Source: Methyloprofundus sedimenti (GTDB lineage Bacteria; Pseudomonadota; Gammaproteobacteria; Methylococcales; Methylomonadaceae). Taken from it: a stretch of 64,000 nucleotides of DNA. The notes below the pieces were generated by a model. The model worked only from the letters and a program-made list of their open reading frames with translations. It was not told the DNA's origin and searched no databases. The DNA lies in contig NZ_LPUF01000001.1 of the NCBI RefSeq assembly GCF_002072955.1, positions 2,564,896 through 2,628,895 of the forward strand, given 5' to 3'. Position numbers and translations under genes: made by a program. This document shows, one piece after another, positions 37,666-49,608 of this stretch; positions within the stretch are counted from its first letter, which is position 1; every line of letters begins with the position of its first letter.

Positions 37666-39200
37666 ATGACAGCAATCCCATTACACTTTGAGTTGCCTGA
37701 AAACCTGACTGCTATAAAATTTTTAAACAATCTGCATAAAAAATTGAATTTGAAATAGTCTCTCAACAGTATGCAATCAAAACTTTTTATGACAGTTTCG
37801 ACTGGCGACTCTACCGTGCCGATATTGTTTGTGAACTCAACCAGTCTAAATCAGCCTCTCATGTCAGCCTTCTCGATAGAAATACCGGTGAGCTCATTGC
37901 ATTGGAAGAGCAAAAAGATATGCCACATTTTTGTGATCAGTTCCGCGACGGGCGCTTAAAAACCCAATTATCTCCTCTACTGGAAATGCGGGCATTATTG
38001 CCTTTATCTCAATTACCACATCAGGTACATCGCATTAATGTACTTAATCAGGATAAAAAAACAGTCTTGCGCATTAGACTGGATGAATATGAATCATTGC
38101 CAAATCGCATTAGCTTACAGCGCTTAAAAGGCTATGAAAAAGCTGCAGAAAAAGTAAGCTTACTGTTGCAACAAGCTCTGCAATTAAAGACCACAACGCC
38201 CTGCTCGATTTTGGATCATGCCCTTAAATTACAAAGTCGCAAAGCACTGGACTACAGCTCTAAACTATCGATAAAGCTTGATCCGAAAATGCGCGCTGAT
38301 CAAGCCAGCGTGATCATCTTTCAACAGTTATTGCGCACTATGCAAATCAATGAGAGTAACACCATAGCCGATGTTGATAGCGAGTTCTTACATGACTTTC
38401 GTGTAGCTATCAGGCGTACTCGTGCAGGTTTAAGTCAGATTAAGCACGCTTTACCTTCTTCTGTGGTCGCGCGTTATGCTGTTTTTTTTGCTTGGTTAGG
38501 ACAGATTACCGGGCAAACACGGGACATGGATGTATATTTATTAAGTTATAAACAGTATAAAGCCGCTCTACCTGTTTCTTTAAGAGAGGATATCACACCC
38601 TTATATGCATTCCTGAAAGAAAAAAAAGGGCAGGCACAAAAAGATTTAGCTGAAAAACTTTCTAGTTCTACTTACAGGAAGGAATTGGCCAACTGGGAAC
38701 AATACTTAAAAGAACCCTTAGAAAAAAAAGACAAGGGCGAAAATGCAACTTTAAGTATTAAAGAATTAGCTGACCAACGTATCTGGAAAGTTTTTAAACG
38801 CGTTATTAAGGAAGGTGAATCAATTAATAAATCCTCACCCGCTGAAGAACTCCATGAGCTGAGAAAAACCTGTAAAAAACTGCGCTATTTAATGGAATTT
38901 TTTGAAAGTCTGTATCCAAAAGATAAAATGAAAATATTAATAAAATCACTGAAAGGTCTGCAAAGTGTATTAGGTGATTTTCAGGATTACGAAGTCCAGG
39001 AAACCAATATCAAGCATTTTAGTGAAGAAATGATGGCCAACAACGTACCTCCCAATACATTCCTGGCAATGGGTGTGTTAGTACAATACTTAGATTCCAT
39101 AAGGTGCGCTGCACGCAATGATTTTGCCAGACAATTTGCACTTTTTGAAAAAGCAGAAAATCAGTCCACTTTTAAATACTTATTTGCGCATAAGGCATAA
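37666..39200 (+). CDS. CYTH-CHAD domain protein, split by a -1 frameshift
   Basis: An ATG at 37666 (MTAIPLHFELPENLTAIKF) reads to a stop at 37756. A -1 shift at the A6 run 37738-37743 joins it to a long frame that continues (FEIVSQQYAIKTFYDSFDWR) through CYTH-like sequence into a CHAD domain to 39200. CHAD signatures are FLHDFRVAIRRTRAGL and LHELRKTCKKLRYLMEFF, basic helices that bind polyphosphate; CYTH domains bind or cleave inorganic triphosphates. The product would be about 512 residues. Without the shift, a TTG at 37902 gives a CHAD-only protein. Slippage, phase variation, mutation or sequencing error are all possible. Eleven bases separate it from the parA-like gene. Confidence 0.8.
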
Positions 39201-39210
39201 GAGATAACAG

Positions 39211-39954
39211 ATGAAAATAATCGCAACTTATAATATTAAAGGCGGAGTTGGTAAAACGTCAACAGCAGTAAATCTGGCTTATATTGCCTCGCAGCATGGC
39301 TATAAAACACTCGTGTGGGACCTGGATCCTCAAGGTGCAAGTAGTTATTATTTTAGAGTAAAACCTAAAATAAAAGGGGGCAGTAAACAGCTTATAGCGG
39401 GTGATCGTGACTTAGATGGATTAATAAAGGCGACCGATTTTGAGAATCTGGATTTATTGCCAGCAGACTTCTCCTTCAGAAATTTAGACTTAGTCTTAGA
39501 TGCGCGAAAAAAACCAACCCAGCGCCTAAAAAAGTTACTCGCACCGCTCACTAAAGAATACGATTTTATCATTCTAGATTGCCCGCCCAATATTTCATTA
39601 TTATCGGAATCCATTTTTGAAGCTGCCGATATATTGCTCTCTCCTATTATCCCAACGACTTTATCTTTACGTACTTTAGAGCAATTAAAGAAATATATTA
39701 AGGATAATAAATTAAAGCATATTCAATTGATTCCTTTTTTCTCTATGGCAGATAGACGAAAAAAAATGCACAGGGAGATCATCGAAACACTAGTAGAAAA
39801 ACATCCTGATATTTTGCAGACAACCATTCCTTATGCAAGTGATATAGAACGCATGGGCTGGGAACGCATGCCATTGGGAGCATACATAAGCAAGGGACGT
39901 TCTACAGAAGCCTATCAACAACTTTGGCAAGAAATAATGACACTCATTAAATAA
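39211..39954 (+). CDS. ParA/MinD-family ATPase linked to the CHAD protein
   Basis: A 247-residue deviant Walker ATPase with KGGVGKTSTAVNLA, WDLDPQGAS and FIILDCPP. No N-terminal DNA-binding domain and no ParB partner or parS-like site were seen, so it is unlikely to be a plasmid partition protein. ParA relatives also position cargoes such as polyhydroxyalkanoate granules, carboxysomes and chemoreceptors. The adjoining polyphosphate-binding CHAD gene suggests positioning of polyphosphate granules or of the complex encoded here. That role is inferred. Confidence 0.88.
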   Translation: MKIIATYNIKGGVGKTSTAVNLAYIASQHGYKTLVWDLDPQGASSYYFRVKPKIKGGSKQLIAGDRDLDGLIKATDFENLDLLPADFSFRNLDLVLDARKKPTQRLKKLLAPLTKEYDFIILDCPPNISLLSESIFEAADILLSPIIPTTLSLRTLEQLKKYIKDNKLKHIQLIPFFSMADRRKKMHREIIETLVEKHPDILQTTIPYASDIERMGWERMPLGAYISKGRSTEAYQQLWQEIMTLIK

Positions 39955-40111
39955 AATAGTCGCCAGATTCACGGTCTTAACAAAAGCACTGACCGCGTAT
40001 TCAATCTGAAAAAGCAAACAGTCATAATTCTGTCATATATTGAGTCGTATAATTAATAGTTAAATCACTACACACTTAATGCCCCTTATATAACTATTGG
40101 AGAACGAGCTT

Positions 40112-40645
40112 ATGTATAAACATATATTTCTTAAATTGACTGCACTTGGTCTATTGATTGCCAGTCACGCGACACTTGCTGAGCCTCATTATAATGTTAA
40201 CGATTATTATCAGGTGTACAAAGATGGACGAATTTATATTTTTGATGATTTTGCGACCTATAACAGCTTTAATCAGGCTGGAGAAACGGCTTACCGGTTA
40301 ACTCGCATCGGCGCAGGCCCCAATGGCGAAACTCTGGTTTTCGGTTTACAAAGTAAAGATAAAGAAATGAGTTCCGGTTTTGGCTCAGTCGATTTATATG
40401 AAGGAACGGCAGAAGGAATTAACGAAGGATTCTATGGTGAAGTAATTAAAGACGGGCGCATCTATGTATTTAACGAATGGCCTGATTTAAAAGAATTTTT
40501 ATCTGTTGGAGAAGCTACTTTTCGCTTTACTGAGATAGGGGCTGGTCCTAATGGCGAAACAGTCATTTATGTACTAAATAAAAATAATAAAAAACAACAG
40601 CCGACTGCATTAATGGCTGAATTTGCGCGTAAACACACAAAATAA
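40112..40645 (+). CDS. Secreted protein with two internal repeats, unknown function
   Basis: A 177-residue protein with a signal peptide (MYKHIFLKLTALGLLIASHA, cleavage near LA-EPHY). The mature part consists of two about 50-residue repeats; each has KDGRIYxF, an aromatic-rich middle and GExxxRxTxIGAGPNGET. The second IGAGPNGET is identical to the first, indicating internal duplication. The ATG at 40112 has GGAGA 8 nt upstream; a TTG at 40097 is also open. I do not recognise the family. It has its own promoter region and a terminator, but lies inside the phosphate-related cluster. Confidence 0.75.
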   Translation: MYKHIFLKLTALGLLIASHATLAEPHYNVNDYYQVYKDGRIYIFDDFATYNSFNQAGETAYRLTRIGAGPNGETLVFGLQSKDKEMSSGFGSVDLYEGTAEGINEGFYGEVIKDGRIYVFNEWPDLKEFLSVGEATFRFTEIGAGPNGETVIYVLNKNNKKQQPTALMAEFARKHTK

Positions 40646-40667
40646 GTTATTATTTTCATTTAATATC

Positions 40668-40699
40668 AAGCTCTCTCACCGAGGGAGCTTTGTTTTTTT
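40668..40699 (+). terminator. Intrinsic terminator after the secreted repeat protein
   Basis: A stem AAGCTCTCTC/GAGGGAGCTT with one mismatch and a 3-nt loop is followed by TGT7. It separates the secreted-protein gene from the Nudix-led operon. Confidence 0.85.
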
Positions 40700-40775
40700 A
40701 TGCGAAACTTTTTGCTCCCCCTTCTTTGCTTTTATTCAGGTATGATGTGCATAGCTAGCAAAAAAAAACCTACTA

Positions 40776-41246
40776 ATGCAAACTTTAGCCCCCACCATTC
40801 GCAATACAGTTCGTGCCGTTATTATTCGTGATGGACGCATTCTACTGCAAAAAAAACAGGATGCATTAAAAGGCGTGCGCTACACGTTACCTGGCGGAGC
40901 ACAAGATCCAGGTGAAACTTTACTGGAAGCCTTGCACCGGGAATGTCAGGAAGAGTTAGGCACAGAAATAATTGCCAGCGAAATTTTACACTTAGCTGAT
41001 TTTTTTAAGCAAAAATCCCTACCAGAACCGTATTTACAGCATCAGCTTGAAATCCTGTTTCATTGTCAAATTGCTGATTCTTATATACCGAAAAATGGTC
41101 CTAAACCTGATAAGCACCAGATAGCCATCGAATGGATCACCATTGATGAGCTGTCTCAAATTCCTTTGCTTCCTGCAATTCTAAAAAAAATCCTGACTAA
41201 GCTAAATCAACCCGTTAATCCTATTTATCTTGGAAAAATAAATTGA
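40776..41246 (+). CDS. Nudix hydrolase
   Basis: A 156-residue Nudix protein with an intact Nudix box (G, five residues, E, seven, REcxEELG; in GGAQDPGETLLEALHRECQE). It hydrolyses a nucleoside-diphosphate-linked substrate that cannot be specified. It is first in a tightly packed run reaching amphi-Trp. Its stop overlaps the TTG start of the next gene by 4 nt. Confidence 0.9.
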   Translation: MQTLAPTIRNTVRAVIIRDGRILLQKKQDALKGVRYTLPGGAQDPGETLLEALHRECQEELGTEIIASEILHLADFFKQKSLPEPYLQHQLEILFHCQIADSYIPKNGPKPDKHQIAIEWITIDELSQIPLLPAILKKILTKLNQPVNPIYLGKIN

Positions 41247-42883
41247 GCGCGCAATTACCCAAAAATCAGCGTACTAACCTCAGGTTTCTATTTGTCGAAG
41301 TAGGCACACAAATTTCTAATCTACAGGATTACATTGTCAAAGAGGGCAAAAACTTTTCTACCGGAAGCTTTGACCGTAGTGGTTATATTCATAACCTAAA
41401 AATTCGCATTCATAACGATGGCTATTTGCAAATTCAAAACGCAGGAAACAATGAAAGTGACATCATTGCTTTTCGCGCTATAGACAATATCGCTAATAAC
41501 CTTGAGCGTATTGCCGAATTATGCCTTGATTGCATGCATCATATTGCGGATTTAAGCAACAAAGACTACCTTTCTGGTGATAAATATGAACAATTACTGG
41601 CTCATGTTGCTCAGGGTATCAGCCTGAGTGAGCGTGCCAATCAGAATAGCGACTCTCAACAGGCGCTCAAAATAGCTGAAGTACAACAGAAATTAAGTAA
41701 AAACTGCCAACAACTAATCGATAAATACAGCAAAGAATTTAAATCCGGGAAAAATGCCGAGGACTTGATTGCCGCCCTTTTTGTGGTAAAAAGTATCAAA
41801 TCCATGGACGAGGCACTACTGAAAATTTGTAATGCAACTTTGTCCAGAAACCTGGGACAGACAATCAATGTGGATCGTTTTAATTCCTTAACTCGCTGCG
41901 TGGACCATTTACAAAAAAATGGTGCTAGCAAAAATCTTGTTTTAGATACTATTGCTGAAACGCGTTCAGGCAGTGTAATTTCAGGTGTCAGCGAAGCTAA
42001 CAAAGACGCTATCATCGCCATTTTCAAAGACGGAAAAAAACAAAAACTTAAAGAAGAACTACAAAGCGTTGAACGCTGGCATGAAATTTATCCAGGTATT
42101 GCCCCCAGAATATTGTCTTATCAGAAACAGGGACAGTCAGCTGCATTACTGATTGAACATTTAGAAGGCTCAACTTTTGAAAATATCCTGTTACAAGGTT
42201 CCGATAAATTACAAAAACAATCCTTACAACAACTTACTGAAACCTTAAATGACATCTGGCATAAAACCTTGCAGAAAAAACCCGTTAATGCGCAATATGC
42301 GCAGCAACTATTAAAGCGTTTGCCTGATGTCTATTCTATACATCCAGTATTTGAACAACAACATATCCATATTGCCGGAATTAACATCCCTGCTTTCACA
42401 AAACTATTAAAGCAGACGAATAAATTAGAGCAATCCCTGGCTGCACCTTTTTCCGTCTATATACATGGTGATTTCAATACCGATAATATTATTTACGCCC
42501 CCGGGCAAAAGAAAATCAATTTTATCGACCTGCACCGTTCCTGCTTTATGGATTATGTACAGGATGTATCCGTGTTTATGGTATCTAATTACCGCTTACA
42601 AGCGCTGGATCATCCGTTCAGACAAAGGGTATTACACGTTAATATGGCCATGTATCATTTTGCTGCAGAATTTGCCCGGCATCATAAAGACCCTACTTTT
42701 GAATTACGTCTGGCGCTTGGGCTGGCACGTTCACTAGCGACTTCAACTCGCTTTACACTGGATAAAACTCTGGCCAAAGCCATGTTTTACCGCTCCCGCT
42801 TATTATTAGAACAGGTACTTGCCGTTAATATAAAACATAGTAAAGATTATCGAGTGCCCATTAAGGAGATTTTTATTGCTTAA
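41243..42883 (+). CDS. PhoU-like helical domain fused to APH-type kinase
   Basis: A 546-residue two-part protein. The first 215 residues are helical and PhoU-like (NNLERIAELCLDCMHHIADLS echoes the metal-binding helix of PhoU). The rest is an aminoglycoside-phosphotransferase-fold kinase, with IEHLEGSTFENIL, catalytic loop YIHGDFNTDNIIY (about residue 408) and FIDLHRS. PhoU links phosphate uptake to regulation, so a phosphate-controlled small-molecule or protein kinase is plausible; substrate unknown. The TTG start overlaps the Nudix stop and is preceded by TTGGA. It overlaps the ATP-grasp gene by 8 nt. Confidence 0.8.
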   Translation: MSAQLPKNQRTNLRFLFVEVGTQISNLQDYIVKEGKNFSTGSFDRSGYIHNLKIRIHNDGYLQIQNAGNNESDIIAFRAIDNIANNLERIAELCLDCMHHIADLSNKDYLSGDKYEQLLAHVAQGISLSERANQNSDSQQALKIAEVQQKLSKNCQQLIDKYSKEFKSGKNAEDLIAALFVVKSIKSMDEALLKICNATLSRNLGQTINVDRFNSLTRCVDHLQKNGASKNLVLDTIAETRSGSVISGVSEANKDAIIAIFKDGKKQKLKEELQSVERWHEIYPGIAPRILSYQKQGQSAALLIEHLEGSTFENILLQGSDKLQKQSLQQLTETLNDIWHKTLQKKPVNAQYAQQLLKRLPDVYSIHPVFEQQHIHIAGINIPAFTKLLKQTNKLEQSLAAPFSVYIHGDFNTDNIIYAPGQKKINFIDLHRSCFMDYVQDVSVFMVSNYRLQALDHPFRQRVLHVNMAMYHFAAEFARHHKDPTFELRLALGLARSLATSTRFTLDKTLAKAMFYRSRLLLEQVLAVNIKHSKDYRVPIKEIFIA

Positions 42884-43790
42884 TTTAAAAATTGCTGTGG
42901 TTGGGCTGCCCGGAAAGTGGTCAACTGAAACTTTAGCTGATGCCGTTGAAAAAAAAACCGGCTTCCGTTTGATTGTTGATATGGATAAGGTTGTATTGAA
43001 TCTTGATAGCCTTGAGCTTACCTATCAAGGCCACAACTTATGTCAACTGGATGCTATTATTATTAAAAAAATTGGCCACCAGTATTCCCCCAATAGTTTA
43101 GACCGACTGGAATTATTACGCGTTGCTGAAAATGCAGGAGTTAAAGTGTTTAGTCAGCCCGTCAAAATATTACGCTTAATCGACCGGCTTAGTTGTACTG
43201 TTACCTTACGTAATGCGGATATTCCCATGCCGGCGACCGTTATCACCGAAGAAATTGATGAAGCAATTGCAGCAGTCAACAAATTTGGTTCGGCAATTTT
43301 CAAGCCTCTGTATTCGACAAAAGCGCGCGGTATGTGTGTCATTAGCAAAAAAGATGGCAAAACTAAAGTACGCAAAAATATCGAAGCATTTAAAACAGCT
43401 AACCCGATGATGTATATTCAGCAGAAAGCCGCCTTAGGCGGCCGGGATATGGGGTTGATGTTTCTAGGCGGCCGTTATTTAGGGGCCTATGCCAGAGTGA
43501 GTAAAAATGATGCCTGGAATACCACGATTAATAGTGGTGGCGAATATGCAGCCGCTGATCCTTCGACTGAGATCATTGCAATGGCAAGTAAAGCACAGGA
43601 CTTATTTGATATGTCCTATACCACAGTCGATGTCGCTGAGACGGATAAGGGTGCCATTGTTTTTGAGGTCTCTGCCTTTGGCGGTTTTCGGGGGGGCAAA
43701 GAAGGGTTGAACCTGGATGTTGCCGAACTATATGTGGATTTTGTTTTAACTAAACTTGAACAAAAAACACCTTATGTTGTGTCTATATAA
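42876..43790 (+). CDS. ATP-grasp enzyme of the GAK type (RimK-like)
   Basis: A 304-residue ATP-grasp protein: AIFKPLYSTKARGMCVISKK is the ATP-binding lysine region, GGRDMGLMFLGG follows, and VFEVSAFGGFRGGKEGLNLDVAELY forms the end of the metal site. The neighbouring HprK-like kinase makes it match the 'GAK system' ATP-grasp family. Such enzymes ligate an amino acid or peptide carboxylate to an amine; the acceptor is unknown. The TTG start has AAGGAG upstream inside the preceding gene. Confidence 0.82.
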   Translation: MLNLKIAVVGLPGKWSTETLADAVEKKTGFRLIVDMDKVVLNLDSLELTYQGHNLCQLDAIIIKKIGHQYSPNSLDRLELLRVAENAGVKVFSQPVKILRLIDRLSCTVTLRNADIPMPATVITEEIDEAIAAVNKFGSAIFKPLYSTKARGMCVISKKDGKTKVRKNIEAFKTANPMMYIQQKAALGGRDMGLMFLGGRYLGAYARVSKNDAWNTTINSGGEYAAADPSTEIIAMASKAQDLFDMSYTTVDVAETDKGAIVFEVSAFGGFRGGKEGLNLDVAELYVDFVLTKLEQKTPYVVSI

Positions 43791-43839
43791 CCCACCAACA
43801 GTATATATAGCAAACCAGATGAAATAATCCAAAAAGACA

Positions 43840-44952
43840 ATGATACCAAATACAAAAGTGCAGGATTTAAGCACTAAACTCATACAGGGAGCCACCTTAC
43901 TTGACCAGAGCTTATTTGTGCAATGTGATGATTGCGTTATCAGTGTACAAAGCAACTCGGTAGCCTTATTAAATGAGCTACAGCGATATTTTAAACACCT
44001 TGTTATTCATCAGAGTCAACAGAGCGAAGCTGATATAGTCGTTATTGCAATTGAATCTGCGGCTCTGGAACTCCCCTGCGCCTTCAAAGACTGGCCACGA
44101 CAAGAAGGCAAAAGCGGTCGTAAAGATGCTTATTATCAGCTTCAAGGGGGCAGACTTATTCAGAAAGTTCGCACTGGCATGGTGTTTCTACAAAGTGAAA
44201 CAAGCAGAATTGCCGTAGGCCCTTGTGTAAAAAACCCTAATCAGGTCATTAATTTCATTAACAGTCAACATATGAACTGGCTGCAACAACGCGGTTGGCT
44301 GATTTGTCATGCTGCGGCTATTGCCTATAAAAATCAGGCTTATGCCATAGCAGGATTTTCAGGGGGGGGTAAATCCACCTTGATGCTACGTTTAATGGAC
44401 AACGAGCAAATAGACTTTATCAGCAACGACCGCTTATTTATCCGCAATATAAACAATTGTATAAAAGTGACTGGTATTGCCAAACTGCCACGCATTAACC
44501 CTGGCACCATTGTTAATAATCCTCGCCTACAATCATTAATTCCAGAACAGCAAAGAGTACAACTACTCGATTTACCAAAACAGCAACTATGGAATATTGA
44601 AGAAAAATATGATGTTGATATCGAAGCCATTTATGGTCAGGGGCGTATTGGAAATAACAAACCACTACACGCATTGATCATCTTAAACTGGCAACATGAT
44701 AGTAAGCAGACCTTTCAGGTCAATAAAGTAAATCTGCAACAGCGTCGCGACCTATTAGCTGCGGTTATGAAATCTCCAGGCCCTTTTTATCAGGATGCAC
44801 AAGGTACATTCTTAAATGAACACGCTGAATTTGATGAATCGGCTTATTTATCAATTTTAAATCAGGTTAATATTTTTGAAGTCAGCGGCAAAATTGATTT
44901 TGCCGCATTGCAATGCTATTTTAATCAACATATTATTAGTGAGGCACGTTAA
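43840..44952 (+). CDS. HprK-related kinase (GAK type B)
   Basis: A 370-residue protein with an unrecognised N-terminal half and a C-terminal HPr kinase/phosphorylase-like P-loop domain: HAAAIAYKNQAYAIAGFSGG leads into GKST (about residue 177), then FISNDRLF. The true HprK phosphorylates HPr on serine; no PTS gene is near, so another protein is the probable target. It belongs to the HprK-related family of GAK gene clusters. Its TAA overlaps the next ATG by one base. Confidence 0.85.
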   Translation: MIPNTKVQDLSTKLIQGATLLDQSLFVQCDDCVISVQSNSVALLNELQRYFKHLVIHQSQQSEADIVVIAIESAALELPCAFKDWPRQEGKSGRKDAYYQLQGGRLIQKVRTGMVFLQSETSRIAVGPCVKNPNQVINFINSQHMNWLQQRGWLICHAAAIAYKNQAYAIAGFSGGGKSTLMLRLMDNEQIDFISNDRLFIRNINNCIKVTGIAKLPRINPGTIVNNPRLQSLIPEQQRVQLLDLPKQQLWNIEEKYDVDIEAIYGQGRIGNNKPLHALIILNWQHDSKQTFQVNKVNLQQRRDLLAAVMKSPGPFYQDAQGTFLNEHAEFDESAYLSILNQVNIFEVSGKIDFAALQCYFNQHIISEAR

Positions 44953-45926
44953 TGAGCAGACAACTATTGATATTACGCCATGGCAAATCTGACTGGGGTG
45001 TCGAAATCAAGGATTTTGATCGACCGCTCAAAAAACGCGGCAAACGTGCTGCTCAGCGTATGGGATCCTGGCTACAGCAACAGAATCTGGTTTCAGACTA
45101 TATCCTTAGTTCACCCGCAGAAAGAGCCAGAAATACCGCAGAAAAATTAGCTAAAGCAATGGGCTTAACTGCACAACGAGTGCATTATGACTCACGCCTG
45201 TATGCCGCTAATCAAGAGCATCTAAAAAATGCTTTGGCAAGTTGCCCACCCGATGCGCAACGAGTCTTGTTAATTGGCCATAATCCTGAACTAGAATCTT
45301 TGTTAGCGTTTCTGAGTAAAGACAAGCTGCCTACACCTGATGATGGTAAATTACTGCCTACTGCCACATTAGCTATCTTTAGCATGCCTGATGACTGGCA
45401 TGCATTAAACAGGGGCTGCGGCGAACTATTGAATATTATCCGTCCGGCAGATCTTCCAGAGAGTTTCCCATTTAATGGTCTGCTAGGTATAGAGCAACGC
45501 GAACGACCAGCCTATTACTATACCCAGTCAGCTGCAATCCCTTATCGCATACACAATAATGAATTACAGATTTTATTAATTTCCTCGAGTGGTGATAATC
45601 ATTGGGGAATTCCCAAAGGCATTATAGAGCCGGGTCAGTCAGCTGCAAAATCAGCTGCTATTGAAGCCTGGGAAGAAGCAGGCATAGAAGGCATTATCAG
45701 TGAACAAATGCTGGATTATTACCTGCATGAAAAATGGGGCAGCACTTGTACAGTGCAGGTATATCCAATGTTAGTCACTCAAATGCTTAACAATGAGGAA
45801 TGGCAGGAAAGTCATCGTCGCAGACAATGGCTGCCACTGCAGAAAGCGACTTTTTTAATCAAACAAAAGGCGTTGCAGGCTATGTTTACAAGTTTAGCCA
45901 CCCGTCTTGCAAGCAAGACAGATTAA
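44952..45926 (+). CDS. SixA-type histidine phosphatase fused to Nudix domain
   Basis: A 324-residue fusion. Residues 1-160 are a SixA-like phosphatase (LILRHGKSDW with the nucleophile His10, and LLIGHNPELESLL with the second His). Residues about 185-320 are a Nudix domain, box near 222-244 (GIIEPGQSAAKSAAIEAWEE); the glutamates of the REUXEE part are kept but the first E is Q and the R is I, so specificity or activity may differ. Mycobacterial MutT1 has the same two folds in reverse order and acts on nucleotides and diadenosine polyphosphates. It is coupled to both neighbours by one-base overlaps. Confidence 0.88.
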   Translation: MSRQLLILRHGKSDWGVEIKDFDRPLKKRGKRAAQRMGSWLQQQNLVSDYILSSPAERARNTAEKLAKAMGLTAQRVHYDSRLYAANQEHLKNALASCPPDAQRVLLIGHNPELESLLAFLSKDKLPTPDDGKLLPTATLAIFSMPDDWHALNRGCGELLNIIRPADLPESFPFNGLLGIEQRERPAYYYTQSAAIPYRIHNNELQILLISSSGDNHWGIPKGIIEPGQSAAKSAAIEAWEEAGIEGIISEQMLDYYLHEKWGSTCTVQVYPMLVTQMLNNEEWQESHRRRQWLPLQKATFLIKQKALQAMFTSLATRLASKTD

Positions 45927-46621
45927 TGGCCAGAGTCATTGCTGCACTTATCAGACATGGTGATTATCATCAATTAGCTGATACACCCAGTGCGCATCAG
46001 CCTTTTGCCTTAACGGCTAAAGGCTTGGCACAGGCATCTGACCTGGCTATACTGATAAATACATTTTGTACTACGCGAGGCTGCCAGATTAACCCCGTTA
46101 TTGCTACGTCTAAATTGCTCCGAGCCTGGCAAACTGCAAAACAATTGACTACAGCGCTAAACAATCCCGGCATCCAGATACATGAATATACGGATCTGGC
46201 TGAGCGCTGTGTAGGCAGTGTCGCGAACTTGTCGGTCACACAAATACGCGAACTGATTAGACTGGACCCACGGCTCGATGATTTACCCAAAGACTGGAAA
46301 TCCAACAGCCATTATTGTTTGCCATTTCAAGGCGCAGAGTCCTTGCTTGATGCAGGTAAACGCGTAGCCACCCTGTTACGTGCGGAAATGCAGCCTCTGA
46401 AACCACATAGCCAAAGCGATCAATTAAAAATATTTGTCGGTCATGGCGCAGCATTTCGTCATGCCGCCTACCATTTAGGCATTATAAACTATGAACAAAT
46501 TGCACTACTTAGTATGTTCCATTGTCAACCGGTATTTATTGAATACACGGGTAATGGCAACTGGCAACATATTGGAGGAGAATGGAAAATCAGAAATGCA
46601 CACAGCCAATTTACCGATTAA
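45926..46621 (+). CDS. Histidine phosphatase family protein
   Basis: A 231-residue phosphatase starting MARVIAALIRHGDYHQL, with the RHG nucleophile motif at the N-terminus and VGHGAAFRHAAYHLG as the second histidine motif. The ATG at 45926 overlaps the preceding stop (TAATG); the frame open to 45800 is only extension into the Nudix gene. It probably removes a phosphate placed by one of the kinases of the cluster, but direct evidence is lacking. Confidence 0.85.
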   Translation: MARVIAALIRHGDYHQLADTPSAHQPFALTAKGLAQASDLAILINTFCTTRGCQINPVIATSKLLRAWQTAKQLTTALNNPGIQIHEYTDLAERCVGSVANLSVTQIRELIRLDPRLDDLPKDWKSNSHYCLPFQGAESLLDAGKRVATLLRAEMQPLKPHSQSDQLKIFVGHGAAFRHAAYHLGIINYEQIALLSMFHCQPVFIEYTGNGNWQHIGGEWKIRNAHSQFTD

Positions 46622-46623
46622 TT

Positions 46624-47949
46624 ATGATATTTAACCCGCTAAAATTACCCTCTTATAAAGGCCTGAAATGGATAACCACAGATTTACCCAGGAAAGCCCA
46701 GAACTGGCCATTAGGAAAAGTACATTCTTCTGCAAAAGATCAGAGTAGTCCGGCAGGTTTAGCAGAACAGTTACAGCAATCATTACTGGATCATCCCTGG
46801 GTATGGCCAAAGACACCGGTATTATTCTTTTCTGATCTACATGCTGATGCTGATGCCTTTATTGCCTCTTTAGTCGCATCGGGTGGCATCAAAAAAACCG
46901 GACCGTTTGATCAGCAATTTAAATTAACGCATACCGGGCGAAAGGCACGTTTTGTTATCGGCGGAGATTGTTTTGACAAAGGCCCAAGTAATTTAAGATT
47001 GCTACGCTGTCTGCGGCTGTTAATAGACAGTGGAGCCAAGGTGCATATTCTGGCGGGTAATCATGATATACGCGTTAAACTCGGCATTCATGCAGTCAAT
47101 CTAAACAAAGATCTGAAAAGCGAACATTTTTTTATTCGTATGGGTGCCAAAGCCATTCCCTTTCTAAAAGAAATACAACAGGAATATTTACAGGGCAAAC
47201 ATGCACTAAAGCATATTCCCGACGAACAGGAATGCCGTAAACGTCTGTACCCATCTGAAAGCTGGTTTAAAACCTTTCCTGAGGCGGCGAAAAATCTGTT
47301 ATCTGACAAAATTATCAACAAAGAAACCAAGCGCTTGCGTGAAAAAATCAATGAATTTGAACATGACCTGCAGAAAGCCGGAATGGATATACGCATAGCC
47401 TACGCAGCAGCCATCAAATGGCAGGAACTCTTTTTAGACAAGGACGGAGAATTTTACTGGTACTTTAAGAAAATGCGCCTGGTTTTACATAAAGGCTCGT
47501 TTTTATACGTTCATGCGGGTATTGATGACAGTATCGCTCACATGATCCATAAAAAAGGGGTTAATTATTTAAACCAGCAATTTAAAAAGCATTTGCATGA
47601 CGAAATTTTCGACTTTTACTATGGTCCCCTGGCAAATACCATTCGTACCAAATACCGGGATGTCGATATGCCGATGACCAGGCAAGGCAATAAAATGCTG
47701 CGTGAAAAAGGCATCTACGCCATCGTTCACGGTCATAAAAACCTGCGTTATGGTCAGCGTATTATGCTCCGCAAAGGTATGGTCAATTTTGAATGCGATG
47801 CTTCAGTCGACCGGCATACTCGTAAGAAAGAAAAAATAGGCACCTTGTCAGGCCATGGTGCGGCAGTCACCATTTTTCAACCACAAGGCAGAGTATTAGG
47901 GATCAGTACCGATTACCCTTATATCAAACTTTTTCAATCTCCCGTATAA
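46624..47949 (+). CDS. Calcineurin-like metallophosphoesterase
   Basis: A 441-residue protein with all five metal-site blocks: FFSDLHADADAF (about residue 68), GGDCFDKGPSN (113), LAGNHDIRV (144), VHAGID (295) and IVHGHKN (368). An extra helical insert of about 120 residues lies between blocks 3 and 4. It resembles protein or dinucleoside-polyphosphate phosphatases. The ATG at 46624 follows the previous stop by 2 nt. Confidence 0.88.
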   Translation: MIFNPLKLPSYKGLKWITTDLPRKAQNWPLGKVHSSAKDQSSPAGLAEQLQQSLLDHPWVWPKTPVLFFSDLHADADAFIASLVASGGIKKTGPFDQQFKLTHTGRKARFVIGGDCFDKGPSNLRLLRCLRLLIDSGAKVHILAGNHDIRVKLGIHAVNLNKDLKSEHFFIRMGAKAIPFLKEIQQEYLQGKHALKHIPDEQECRKRLYPSESWFKTFPEAAKNLLSDKIINKETKRLREKINEFEHDLQKAGMDIRIAYAAAIKWQELFLDKDGEFYWYFKKMRLVLHKGSFLYVHAGIDDSIAHMIHKKGVNYLNQQFKKHLHDEIFDFYYGPLANTIRTKYRDVDMPMTRQGNKMLREKGIYAIVHGHKNLRYGQRIMLRKGMVNFECDASVDRHTRKKEKIGTLSGHGAAVTIFQPQGRVLGISTDYPYIKLFQSPV

Positions 47950-47955
47950 GCCCTT

Positions 47956-48225
47956 ATGAAACAAGATAAACAAAGTTTTAAACATGAGTCCTTACAGGAT
48001 GCAAAAAGTATAGAAAAGATTCTCAAAGCCATCAGTGAAAATATCGGCAAAGGCCAGCTTAAGTTCAGTGATGAAGAAGATGAAATCGAGTTTCAACCTG
48101 AAGGACTAATGACATTAAAAATAAGCGCCGCGCAAGAAACTCATCAACAAAGCTTTAATATCAAAGTCAGCTGGCAGAGAGAAAGTGAAGAATTGAAGCA
48201 TAAGACATTAAAGATTAGTCGATAA
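47956..48225 (+). CDS. amphi-Trp domain protein
   Basis: An 89-residue protein of the amphi-Trp family: FKHESLQDAKSIEKILKAI, GKGQLKFSDEEDEIEFQPEG and a terminal VSWQRE. Such small proteins occur in GAK gene clusters and are candidates for the modified carrier or substrate. It is the last gene of the run, 6 nt after the metallophosphoesterase. Confidence 0.85.
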   Translation: MKQDKQSFKHESLQDAKSIEKILKAISENIGKGQLKFSDEEDEIEFQPEGLMTLKISAAQETHQQSFNIKVSWQRESEELKHKTLKISR

Positions 48226-48343: not shown

Positions 48344-48483
48344 ATACTTCGCGCGGTCACGGATGCGGCTGTATATCGAGTTGATTTTAGTCGAGAGCAA
48401 GAGCTGCGCAACTGTTTCAGCAACGCGGCTCTATCGGCTAAAATAGACCGCTAGAAAACCGCCTATGTGACCGCGTGCAGTAT
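48344..48483 (+). repeat. Right copy of element with terminal inverted repeats
   Basis: This copy has the same orientation as that at 37436-37591. It begins ATACTTCGCGCGGTCACGGA and ends GTGACCGCGTGCAGTAT. It shares the core TTAGTCGAGAG, TTTCAGCAACGCGGCT and CCGCTAGAAAACCGC, with small indels. The right end is close to the msrAB ribosome site. Confidence 0.85.
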
Positions 48484-48504
48484 ACATACAACAAGGAGCT
48501 TAAT

Positions 48505-49608
48505 ATGCAAATCAAACCTCCAACACTCATCACTCTGCTTAGTTTGTTATTGATTTCTGCCTGTGCTGAATCTCAACAACCCGCCCAAACATTAAACACA
48601 TCAGAGTTATCTATCGCCACGTTTGCCGGCGGCTGTTTCTGGTGTGTAGAATCAGATTTTGAAAAAGTCCCTGGCGTACAGCAGGTTATCTCCGGTTTTA
48701 GCGGCGGAAATGTAGCTAATCCAAGTTACCAGCAAGTCTCTGCCGGAACGACCGGCCATGTAGAAGCAGTACAAGTCTATTATGACCCCAAAGTCATCAG
48801 CTATAACGATTTACTGCAGGCATTCTGGCGACAAATTGACCCCACCGATAATCAAGGTCAATTTATTGACCGGGGCAAACATTATCGCCCGGTGATTTTT
48901 TATCATAATCAGCAACAACAGCAACAGGCAGAACTTTCCAGACAAAACCTGCAGGCTTCAGGACGCTTTGATAAACCCATAACAATTGAAATAGTTCCGT
49001 TCAAGAACTTTTATGCTGCTGAAGACTATCATCAGGGCTATTACCTGAACAACCCTCTGCGCTATAAATTTTATCGTTACAACTCAGGTAGAGACCAGTA
49101 TTTATCTGAAATATGGGGGGATGATTTAAAATTCAGCCCATCCTCTTCCTCAAAACAGCAATACAGTAAACCTGGCGATGCAGAATTACGCAAGAAACTC
49201 AGCCCGTTACAATATCAGGTCACCCAGCAAGAAGCGACCGAACCGGCTTTTGACAACAGCTTCTGGGATGAAAAAAGGCCCGGTATTTATGTTGATGGTG
49301 TCAGCGGTGAGCCACTGTTTTCATCCACAGATAAATTTAAATCAGGCACAGGCTGGCCCAGTTTTACTCAGCCTTTAGTCACTGATCATATCGTTGAAAA
49401 AACTGATTATTATTTGCTTTATCCCAGAACCGAAATTCGCAGTAAATATGCGGATTCGCATCTCGGACATGTATTCAATGACGGACCACAACCAACAGGA
49501 CTGCGTTATTGCATTAACTCAGCTGCACTACGTTTTATTCCAGCAGAAGAACTTCAGTCTGCAGGGTACGGTGAATATCTTGAACTTTTCACTCAAACAG
49601 ATAAATAA
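48505..49608 (+). CDS. msrAB: MsrA-MsrB fusion lipoprotein (methionine sulfoxide reductase)
   Basis: A 367-residue fusion with a lipoprotein signal (LLLISAC lipobox). MsrA domain: [15 protein letters not shown] with catalytic Cys and EDYHQGYY. MsrB domain: [20 protein letters not shown] through the catalytic [13 protein letters not shown]. The MsrB zinc-cysteine pairs appear to be absent, as in one MsrB subgroup. It repairs oxidised methionine in the envelope. The ATG at 48505 has AAGGAG at 48493-48498. Confidence 0.93.

Follow-up and report, generated by a model that had tools for sequence, protein, structure and literature searches.

A conserved GAK operon, with phosphate-related neighbors in some relatives, and a separable CHAD-ParA gene pair in Methyloprofundus sedimenti

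Introduction

What might an ATP-grasp enzyme, two kinases, a set of phosphatases and Nudix domains, and a small amphi-Trp protein be doing in a single operon, and why should genes for a CHAD protein and a ParA-type ATPase lie just upstream of it? This question is raised by positions 37666-48225 of a 64,000-nt window of the Methyloprofundus sedimenti genome (contig NZ_LPUF01000001.1); all coordinates below are positions within this window, and all of the features described between 37666 and 48225 lie on the plus strand. An initial annotation read the eleven consecutive plus-strand genes of this stretch, a number that an open reading frame (ORF) check bears out, as one candidate phosphate/polyphosphate module built around the GAK gene set. 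Here, we report that the stretch consists of two adjoining things, namely genes for the CHAD protein, the ParA-type ATPase, and a small secreted-looking protein, followed by a compact eight-gene unit (40776-48225), and that this unit is a real, conserved GAK system that has been named by NCBI but is unstudied. A search of the open-access literature, outside of which most subscription journals fall, returned no paper on GAK, amphi-Trp, or the HprK-related kinase.

Results

The eight-gene unit is a conserved GAK system

GAK is represented in NCBIfam by the models TIGR04354, TIGR04355, TIGR04356, and TIGR04357, and the unit resembles it in encoding an ATP-grasp enzyme, an HprK-related kinase B (HprK-B), and an amphi-Trp protein in one operon. 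All three pass the curated NCBI cutoffs: the ATP-grasp enzyme (42876-43790) scores 446.7 bits against TIGR04356 (cutoff 300), HprK-B (43840-44952) scores 363.3 bits against TIGR04355 (cutoff 200), and amphi-Trp (47956-48225) scores 60 bits against TIGR04354 (cutoff 31) and 33.5 bits against PF20068 (cutoff 27). The assignment of these three proteins to GAK in the initial annotation is therefore correct. The first gene of the operon encodes a Nudix hydrolase (40776-41246; Pfam NUDIX, 2.7e-17) and is followed by a gene for a PhoU-like domain fused to an APH-type kinase (PhoU-APH; 41243-42883; 5.7e-12 against solved PhoU and 9e-9 for APH). After the ATP-grasp and HprK-B genes come those for a SixA-like histidine phosphatase fused to a Nudix domain (SixA-Nudix; 44952-45926; Pfam and NCBIfam, the SixA-like match of 60.6 bits lying below the SixA cutoff of 74.5), a histidine phosphatase (45926-46621; Pfam His_Phos_1, 2.9e-15), a calcineurin-like metallophosphoesterase (46624-47949; Pfam Metallophos, 2.8e-8), and finally amphi-Trp.

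The mechanically predicted ORFs of the histidine phosphatase and the phosphoesterase begin earlier, at 45800 and 46582, and the starts adopted here, 45926 and 46624, are in-frame ATGs that agree with aligned homologs. With these starts, the genes from the first Nudix gene onward overlap or lie within 49 nt of each other, as originally described: the first three junctions are a 4-base overlap, an 8-base overlap, and a gap of 49 bases, and the last four are two 1-base overlaps followed by gaps of 2 and 6 bases, the revised starts applying to the last three.

To place this unit among its relatives, ATP-grasp homologs were collected from one genome per species across 84,980 species, and the best 80 of 500 loci (L061-L140) were used, of which 38 had enough sequence on both sides to be evaluated for gene content. 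Since loci were picked by their ATP-grasp match, this gene is present in all 38 by construction. PhoU-APH was found in 38 of these loci, HprK-B and amphi-Trp in 37 each, the histidine phosphatase and the phosphoesterase in 36 each, SixA-Nudix in 30, and the first Nudix gene in 23, while CHAD and ParA were found in only 8 each. Gene order was preserved in 32 of the 38, and opposite-strand neighbors occurred in only 1 of 243 adjacent pairs. Thus, the families co-occur in a conserved order outside this genome, and the proposed extension of GAK holds for PhoU-APH and SixA-Nudix, but not for CHAD and ParA, which are not intrinsic parts of the system. PhoU-APH, Nudix, SixA-Nudix, the histidine phosphatase, and the phosphoesterase are conserved, yet none carries a GAK name in the annotations examined.

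Among the best 80 of 500, the ATP-grasp relatives nearest to the window copy are from Methyloprofundus and related methanotrophs. The enzyme set occurs in Gammaproteobacteria, Alphaproteobacteria, and Mariprofundia, the titles that name a group being mostly from the first two and Mariprofundus; one locus (L097) derives from a metagenome bin titled as a Halobacteria archaeon. In an even phylum sample of 398 genomes, 13 were above the ATP-grasp cutoff, and all 13 also passed the HprK_rel_B cutoff. HprK-B without a listed ATP-grasp match was seen in two genomes (G180 and G224), in each case near the start of a contig, and a third (G073) has partial matches to both. An opposite-strand gene for a CofD-like protein (TIGR04357) lies near 31 of the 80 units, with the copy at L078 scoring 533.5 bits. 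The M. sedimenti genome differs from such loci in having no CofD-like gene (0 matches to TIGR04357). Because it is present in only 31 of 80 loci, we take this gene as accessory rather than defining.

A link to phosphate in a few lineages

To determine whether GAK loci tend to lie near phosphate or polyphosphate genes, we counted six kinds of gene, CHAD included, in the flanks of the 80 loci (694 kb) and in 60 control stretches of 20 kb (1.2 Mb) from three GAK-carrying genomes. At least one was found at 15/80 loci compared to 2/60 control stretches. When CHAD was left out and the phoU gene of locus L089 included, so that only PPK1, a Na/Pi symporter, PstS, PstB, or PhoU counted, the result was 13/80 versus 2/60 (p 0.012, raw counts). 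Two loci are striking. In a Ketobacter locus (L107), pstS-pstC-pstA-pstB-phoU precedes the GAK genes and phoR-phoB lies 2.7 kb downstream; PstS, PstA, PstB, PhoU, PhoB, and PhoR pass their NCBIfam cutoffs, and PstC is named by its place and a weak PstA match. In L089, a full phoU gene is found inside the GAK operon itself (182.5 bits, cutoff 130). Outside L107, PhoR also exceeds its cutoff in L079.

We also scored upstream regions for PhoB-box-like sites, with an ad hoc consensus and weights (maximum score 31). A score of at least 24 was reached in 6 of 71 upstream regions, from 5 ATP-grasp clusters, compared to 6 of 1420 shuffles of those regions (p 7e-6, raw counts). In the window, the site at 40019-40039 scores 27/31, the best across the 64 kb, and a simpler pattern matches this site and two other places, with 0.42 expected.

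Several points weigh against reading too much into these data. The flank queries were drawn from the test loci, which favors them; when each locus is denied its own query, the count is 12/80 versus 2/60 (p 0.020). The 13 phosphate-flanked loci represent only 4 of 30 ATP-grasp clusters at 75% identity, 10 of the loci belonging to a single cluster, and 2 of 15 at 70%, which leaves few independent cases behind the enrichment. In 65 of the 80 loci, the available flank, which is short in some cases, contains no gene of any of the six kinds. Matches to phoR and phoB of similar strength occur in the control stretches, and we therefore claim no enrichment for these two genes. Strong PhoB-box-like sites are found in only 6 of 71 upstream regions, by this ad hoc consensus, and the one in the window precedes the gene for the secreted-looking protein, which is itself followed by a terminator-like hairpin. 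Upstream of CHAD genes, the best PhoB-box score was 20 (10 genes). Finally, no phosphate-transport or polyphosphate neighbor is annotated within 12 kb of three plasmid copies of GAK, for which the tables are incomplete. Taken together, the proposal of a phosphate/polyphosphate module gains some backing from the neighbors, the PhoB-box-like sites, and the CHAD-ParA association described below, but this backing comes from few lineages. The phosphate link of GAK, reported here for the first time, is real but thinner than the raw counts imply.

The plasmid copies invite a different explanation. GAK was found in 5 plasmid records, and together with its patchy distribution (the 13 of 398 genomes noted above), this would be in keeping with a defense or stress-response island unrelated to phosphate. 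The three plasmid copies inspected carry GAK or HprK-related names and share the gene order of the window, with 6 or 7 of the eight genes; they differ from it in that SixA-Nudix is missing from all three and the Nudix gene from two, and two have the CofD-like gene. However, the phosphate neighbors at GAK loci run counter to this idea, and a PADLOC search with 10 of the proteins gave a match of the Nudix protein to one candidate model and a short match of ParA to another, both models being PDC-named. We consider a defense island highly improbable.

CHAD and ParA form a separate module

The CHAD gene (37666-39200) encodes a protein with a clear CHAD domain (Pfam, 9.7e-57; 193 bits, cutoff 25.6) preceded by an unclassified N-terminal region of ~210 aa. 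It is paired with the gene for a ParA-type ATPase (39211-39954; Pfam AAA_31, 6.9e-38), the Walker A motif of which, KGGVGKT, with the signature lysine (KGGxGKT), is invariant in 11/11 sequences. The N-terminus of the CHAD gene changes frame near 37739, at a run of A, so that 37666-39200 is not a single open frame, the open frame being 37740-39197. Homologs from two near relatives (L061 and L062) are open where the window copy splits, indicating either an assembly error or a broken copy. The protein was initially described as CYTH-CHAD. The CYTH part was not confirmed: Pfam finds CHAD alone above cutoff in the window protein and in 4 homologs whose N-terminus is intact, and hhalign of the CHAD protein to 2 CYTH proteins, a weak test, found nothing.

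To examine the distribution of this pair, we defined the window's CHAD type by a profile score of at least 182 bits, with the next match at 128; because this profile derives from CHAD genes located close to ParA and GAK genes, it favors relatives of that kind. The type is present in 8 of the 398 sample genomes and has ParA adjacent in 7 of these, our own genome counted; the exception, G252, has its CHAD match as a fragment on a different contig. As judged by eye, no ParA match of listed strength borders any of the remaining 82 CHAD matches in the sample. Similarly, among 25 relatives, 16 reach the CHAD-type score and 15 of these, again counting our own genome, have ParA adjacent, while the sixteenth (L285) matches over its CHAD part alone and lacks ParA. 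No paper linking CHAD to ParA, polyphosphate granules, and the nucleoid was found in the open-access literature searched, and neither polyphosphate nor CHAD appears as a term in one ParA paper (PMC10241942).

This CHAD type is enriched among GAK genomes, occurring in 4 of 16 GAK-positive versus 4 of 382 GAK-negative genomes (p 1e-4, uncorrected for relatedness). In one genome (G156, locus L244), CHAD-ParA is flanked by the phosphoesterase and amphi-Trp genes, and the phosphoesterase gene is followed by 1.8 kb of other open frames; in another (G196, locus L245), PhoU-APH comes directly after the pair. In three genomes (G142, G434, and G361), by contrast, the pair has no GAK genes nearby. Within Methyloprofundus, the pair is more common than GAK: CHAD was found in 13 of 16 genomes and the GAK ATP-grasp was above cutoff in 4 of 18, plus a likely fragment (G008). 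Since the pair also stands alone, even in GAK-negative genomes, CHAD-ParA is best described as a module in its own right with a tendency to associate with GAK rather than as an intrinsic part of it. Away from GAK, CHAD-ParA pairs were seen with a SixA-like gene following in G142 (L152), a stand-alone CYTH gene beside the pair in G434 (L153), and both kinds of gene in G180 (L154).

Enzymes of the unit

On its own, the PhoU region of the PhoU-APH kinase scores 17.1 bits, under the Pfam cutoff of 23.5, and it was a profile of 60 sequences that matched solved PhoU at the E-value given above. The HGDxNxDN residues of the APH-type kinase are invariant in 60 sequences, and the PDB matches of the predicted model (mean predicted local distance difference test [pLDDT] score of 88.4) are APH, choline, and ethanolamine kinases. 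The P-loop of HprK-B, SGGGKST, is invariant in 55 sequences, and the HprK-B profile retrieved no HprK from PDB at an E-value of 0.1. For the Nudix half of SixA-Nudix, the best solved match is diphosphoinositol polyphosphate phosphohydrolase 1 (DIPP1; 7.5e-10). The metallophosphoesterase weakly matches a model for diadenosine tetraphosphatase (1e-4), and by itself it found no convincing relative among solved structures. These enzyme classes suggest a cycle in which a phosphorylated product would be made and broken down.

The nearest solved relatives of the ATP-grasp enzyme are RimK/LysX-type ligases (5e-18). The EVN motif of RimK-type ligases is EVS in 16/16 aligned GAK sequences, and the chemistry may therefore differ from that of RimK/LysX-type ligases. 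Ten solved sequences match at 1e-5 or better, and neither PPIP5K nor ITPK is among these listed sequence matches. After the GAK model itself, the best NCBIfam model is MptN (2.1e-46, below its cutoff), and CofF matches as well (1.4e-8). These matches, along with the CofD-like gene flanking 31/80 loci, bring to mind the tail of F420: a CofD-like enzyme would transfer a phospho-group and an MptN/CofF-like ATP-grasp enzyme would add amino acids to a cofactor or conjugate. Yet the CofD-like gene is missing from this genome and was not seen at 49/80 loci, some of which are truncated at a contig end, the only other NCBIfam match of the CofD-like protein at 1e-10 or better is a YvcK-type model, and the conserved genes of the unit include no obvious scaffold-making enzyme. 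An F420-like pathway is thus an unlikely account of the unit.

Amphi-Trp and the carrier proposal

The initial annotation proposed amphi-Trp as a carrier that the HprK-like kinase phosphorylates and the ATP-grasp enzyme ligates, with the phosphatases undoing these changes. Its near-universal presence (37/38 evaluable loci) is consistent with such a role, as is an N-terminal F-x-H-x-S-L motif that is common to most GAK copies and missing from the 3 non-GAK amphi-Trp proteins that could be aligned to the GAK profile. Ser12 within this motif is the best candidate acceptor, present in 52/52 aligned GAK copies, with His10 in 51/52. However, Ser12 is replaced by Ala in two further GAK copies (G182 and G198), one of which also has Tyr in place of His10, and with no likely phosphate acceptor kept in every GAK copy examined, a carrier role is unlikely to be universal. 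RimK extends the C-terminus of ribosomal protein S6. The C-terminus of amphi-Trp, unlike that of S6, is variable among GAK copies, and the change from EVN to EVS in the ATP-grasp enzyme likewise counts against a carrier role. The carrier proposal is consequently unsupported, and we regard it as improbable. The non-GAK amphi-Trp proteins, encoded at seven loci (L262, L264, L265, L266, L267, L268, and L269), have no GAK genes in their fetched flanks.

An AlphaFold2 model of amphi-Trp (mean pLDDT 84.7, compared to 54-60 for the remaining four models) consists of one long helix plus four strands. Foldseek retrieved no PDB match for it at an E-value of 0.001 or better, so the fold gives no function, and a sequence profile produced only weak matches in PDB.

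The secreted-looking protein and flanking features

Between the CHAD-ParA pair and the eight-gene unit lies the gene for the small secreted-looking protein (40097-40645), which contains two ~58-aa repeats, as indicated by repeat alignment, and matches no family. It had been counted as a member of the module, but a counterpart was found at 0/38 evaluable loci, and we reject it as a component of the system. A terminator-like hairpin with a T tail (40668-40690; 10 pairs, 5 of them G-C) divides this gene from the eight-gene unit. As a scan of the region found 12 hairpins compared to 10.1 expected from shuffles, it is only the place and strength of this hairpin that support it. Just 3' of the operon, at 48475-49608, is a gene for a fused MsrA/MsrB methionine sulfoxide reductase.

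Discussion

Based on the data presented above, our preferred explanation, which we hold tentatively and put at slightly under an even chance, is that the eight-gene unit is a GAK operon most likely running a phosphate-status pathway and that CHAD-ParA is a separable module for granule positioning. In this scheme, the PhoU-like domain would sense, or couple to, the phosphate machinery and govern the fused APH-type kinase. The APH-type kinase, the HprK-like kinase, and the ATP-grasp enzyme could then build a phosphorylated or amino-acid-conjugated product, which the two Nudix domains, the histidine phosphatases, and the metallophosphoesterase would break down, with the level of this product reporting on phosphate or polyphosphate. 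Amphi-Trp would more likely be a small binding or regulatory subunit than a carrier. For its part, the CHAD protein may bind polyphosphate granules, and ParA may space or segregate these granules on the nucleoid. Other CHAD proteins are reported to bind polyphosphate granules (PMC9239181; PMC8003754) and to localize to them (PMC9239181).

A bolder form of this scheme, which we consider doubtful, draws on two analogies: GAK would signal phosphate status through a new phosphorylated or pyrophosphate messenger, much as eukaryotic inositol pyrophosphates do, and CHAD-ParA would position granules at the expense of ATP, much as McdAB does with carboxysomes. The eukaryotic inositol pyrophosphate pathway (PMC11836120) likewise employs an ATP-grasp enzyme (PPIP5K), a histidine phosphatase, and a DIPP-like Nudix domain in phosphate homeostasis. 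It differs in that RimK/LysX-type ligases are the closest solved relatives of the GAK enzyme and that Pfam and NCBIfam scans of the unit gave no inositol kinase family. The McdAB system resembles the CHAD-ParA pair in that a ParA-type ATPase is encoded beside a likely cargo-binding protein (PMC13052382). In the window, the partner is a CHAD protein rather than McdB, and the likely cargo would be the polyphosphate granule. The ppk-pptA-Nudix operon of Streptomyces, a polyphosphate operon under PhoP control that encodes both a CHAD protein and a Nudix hydrolase, is a bacterial parallel; it comprises three genes only, and the terms ATP-grasp and SixA do not appear in PMC8003754.

What is new here is the link of GAK to phosphate and polyphosphate, together with the CHAD-ParA pair; the biochemical function proposed above is inferred. 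GAK has so far existed as a set of NCBI family names, and its tie to phosphate and polyphosphate gives it a testable role. In addition, the CHAD-ParA pair bears on a question raised in a 2025 review (PMC13052382), namely whether the localization of polyphosphate granules requires the expenditure of ATP, and by which proteins.

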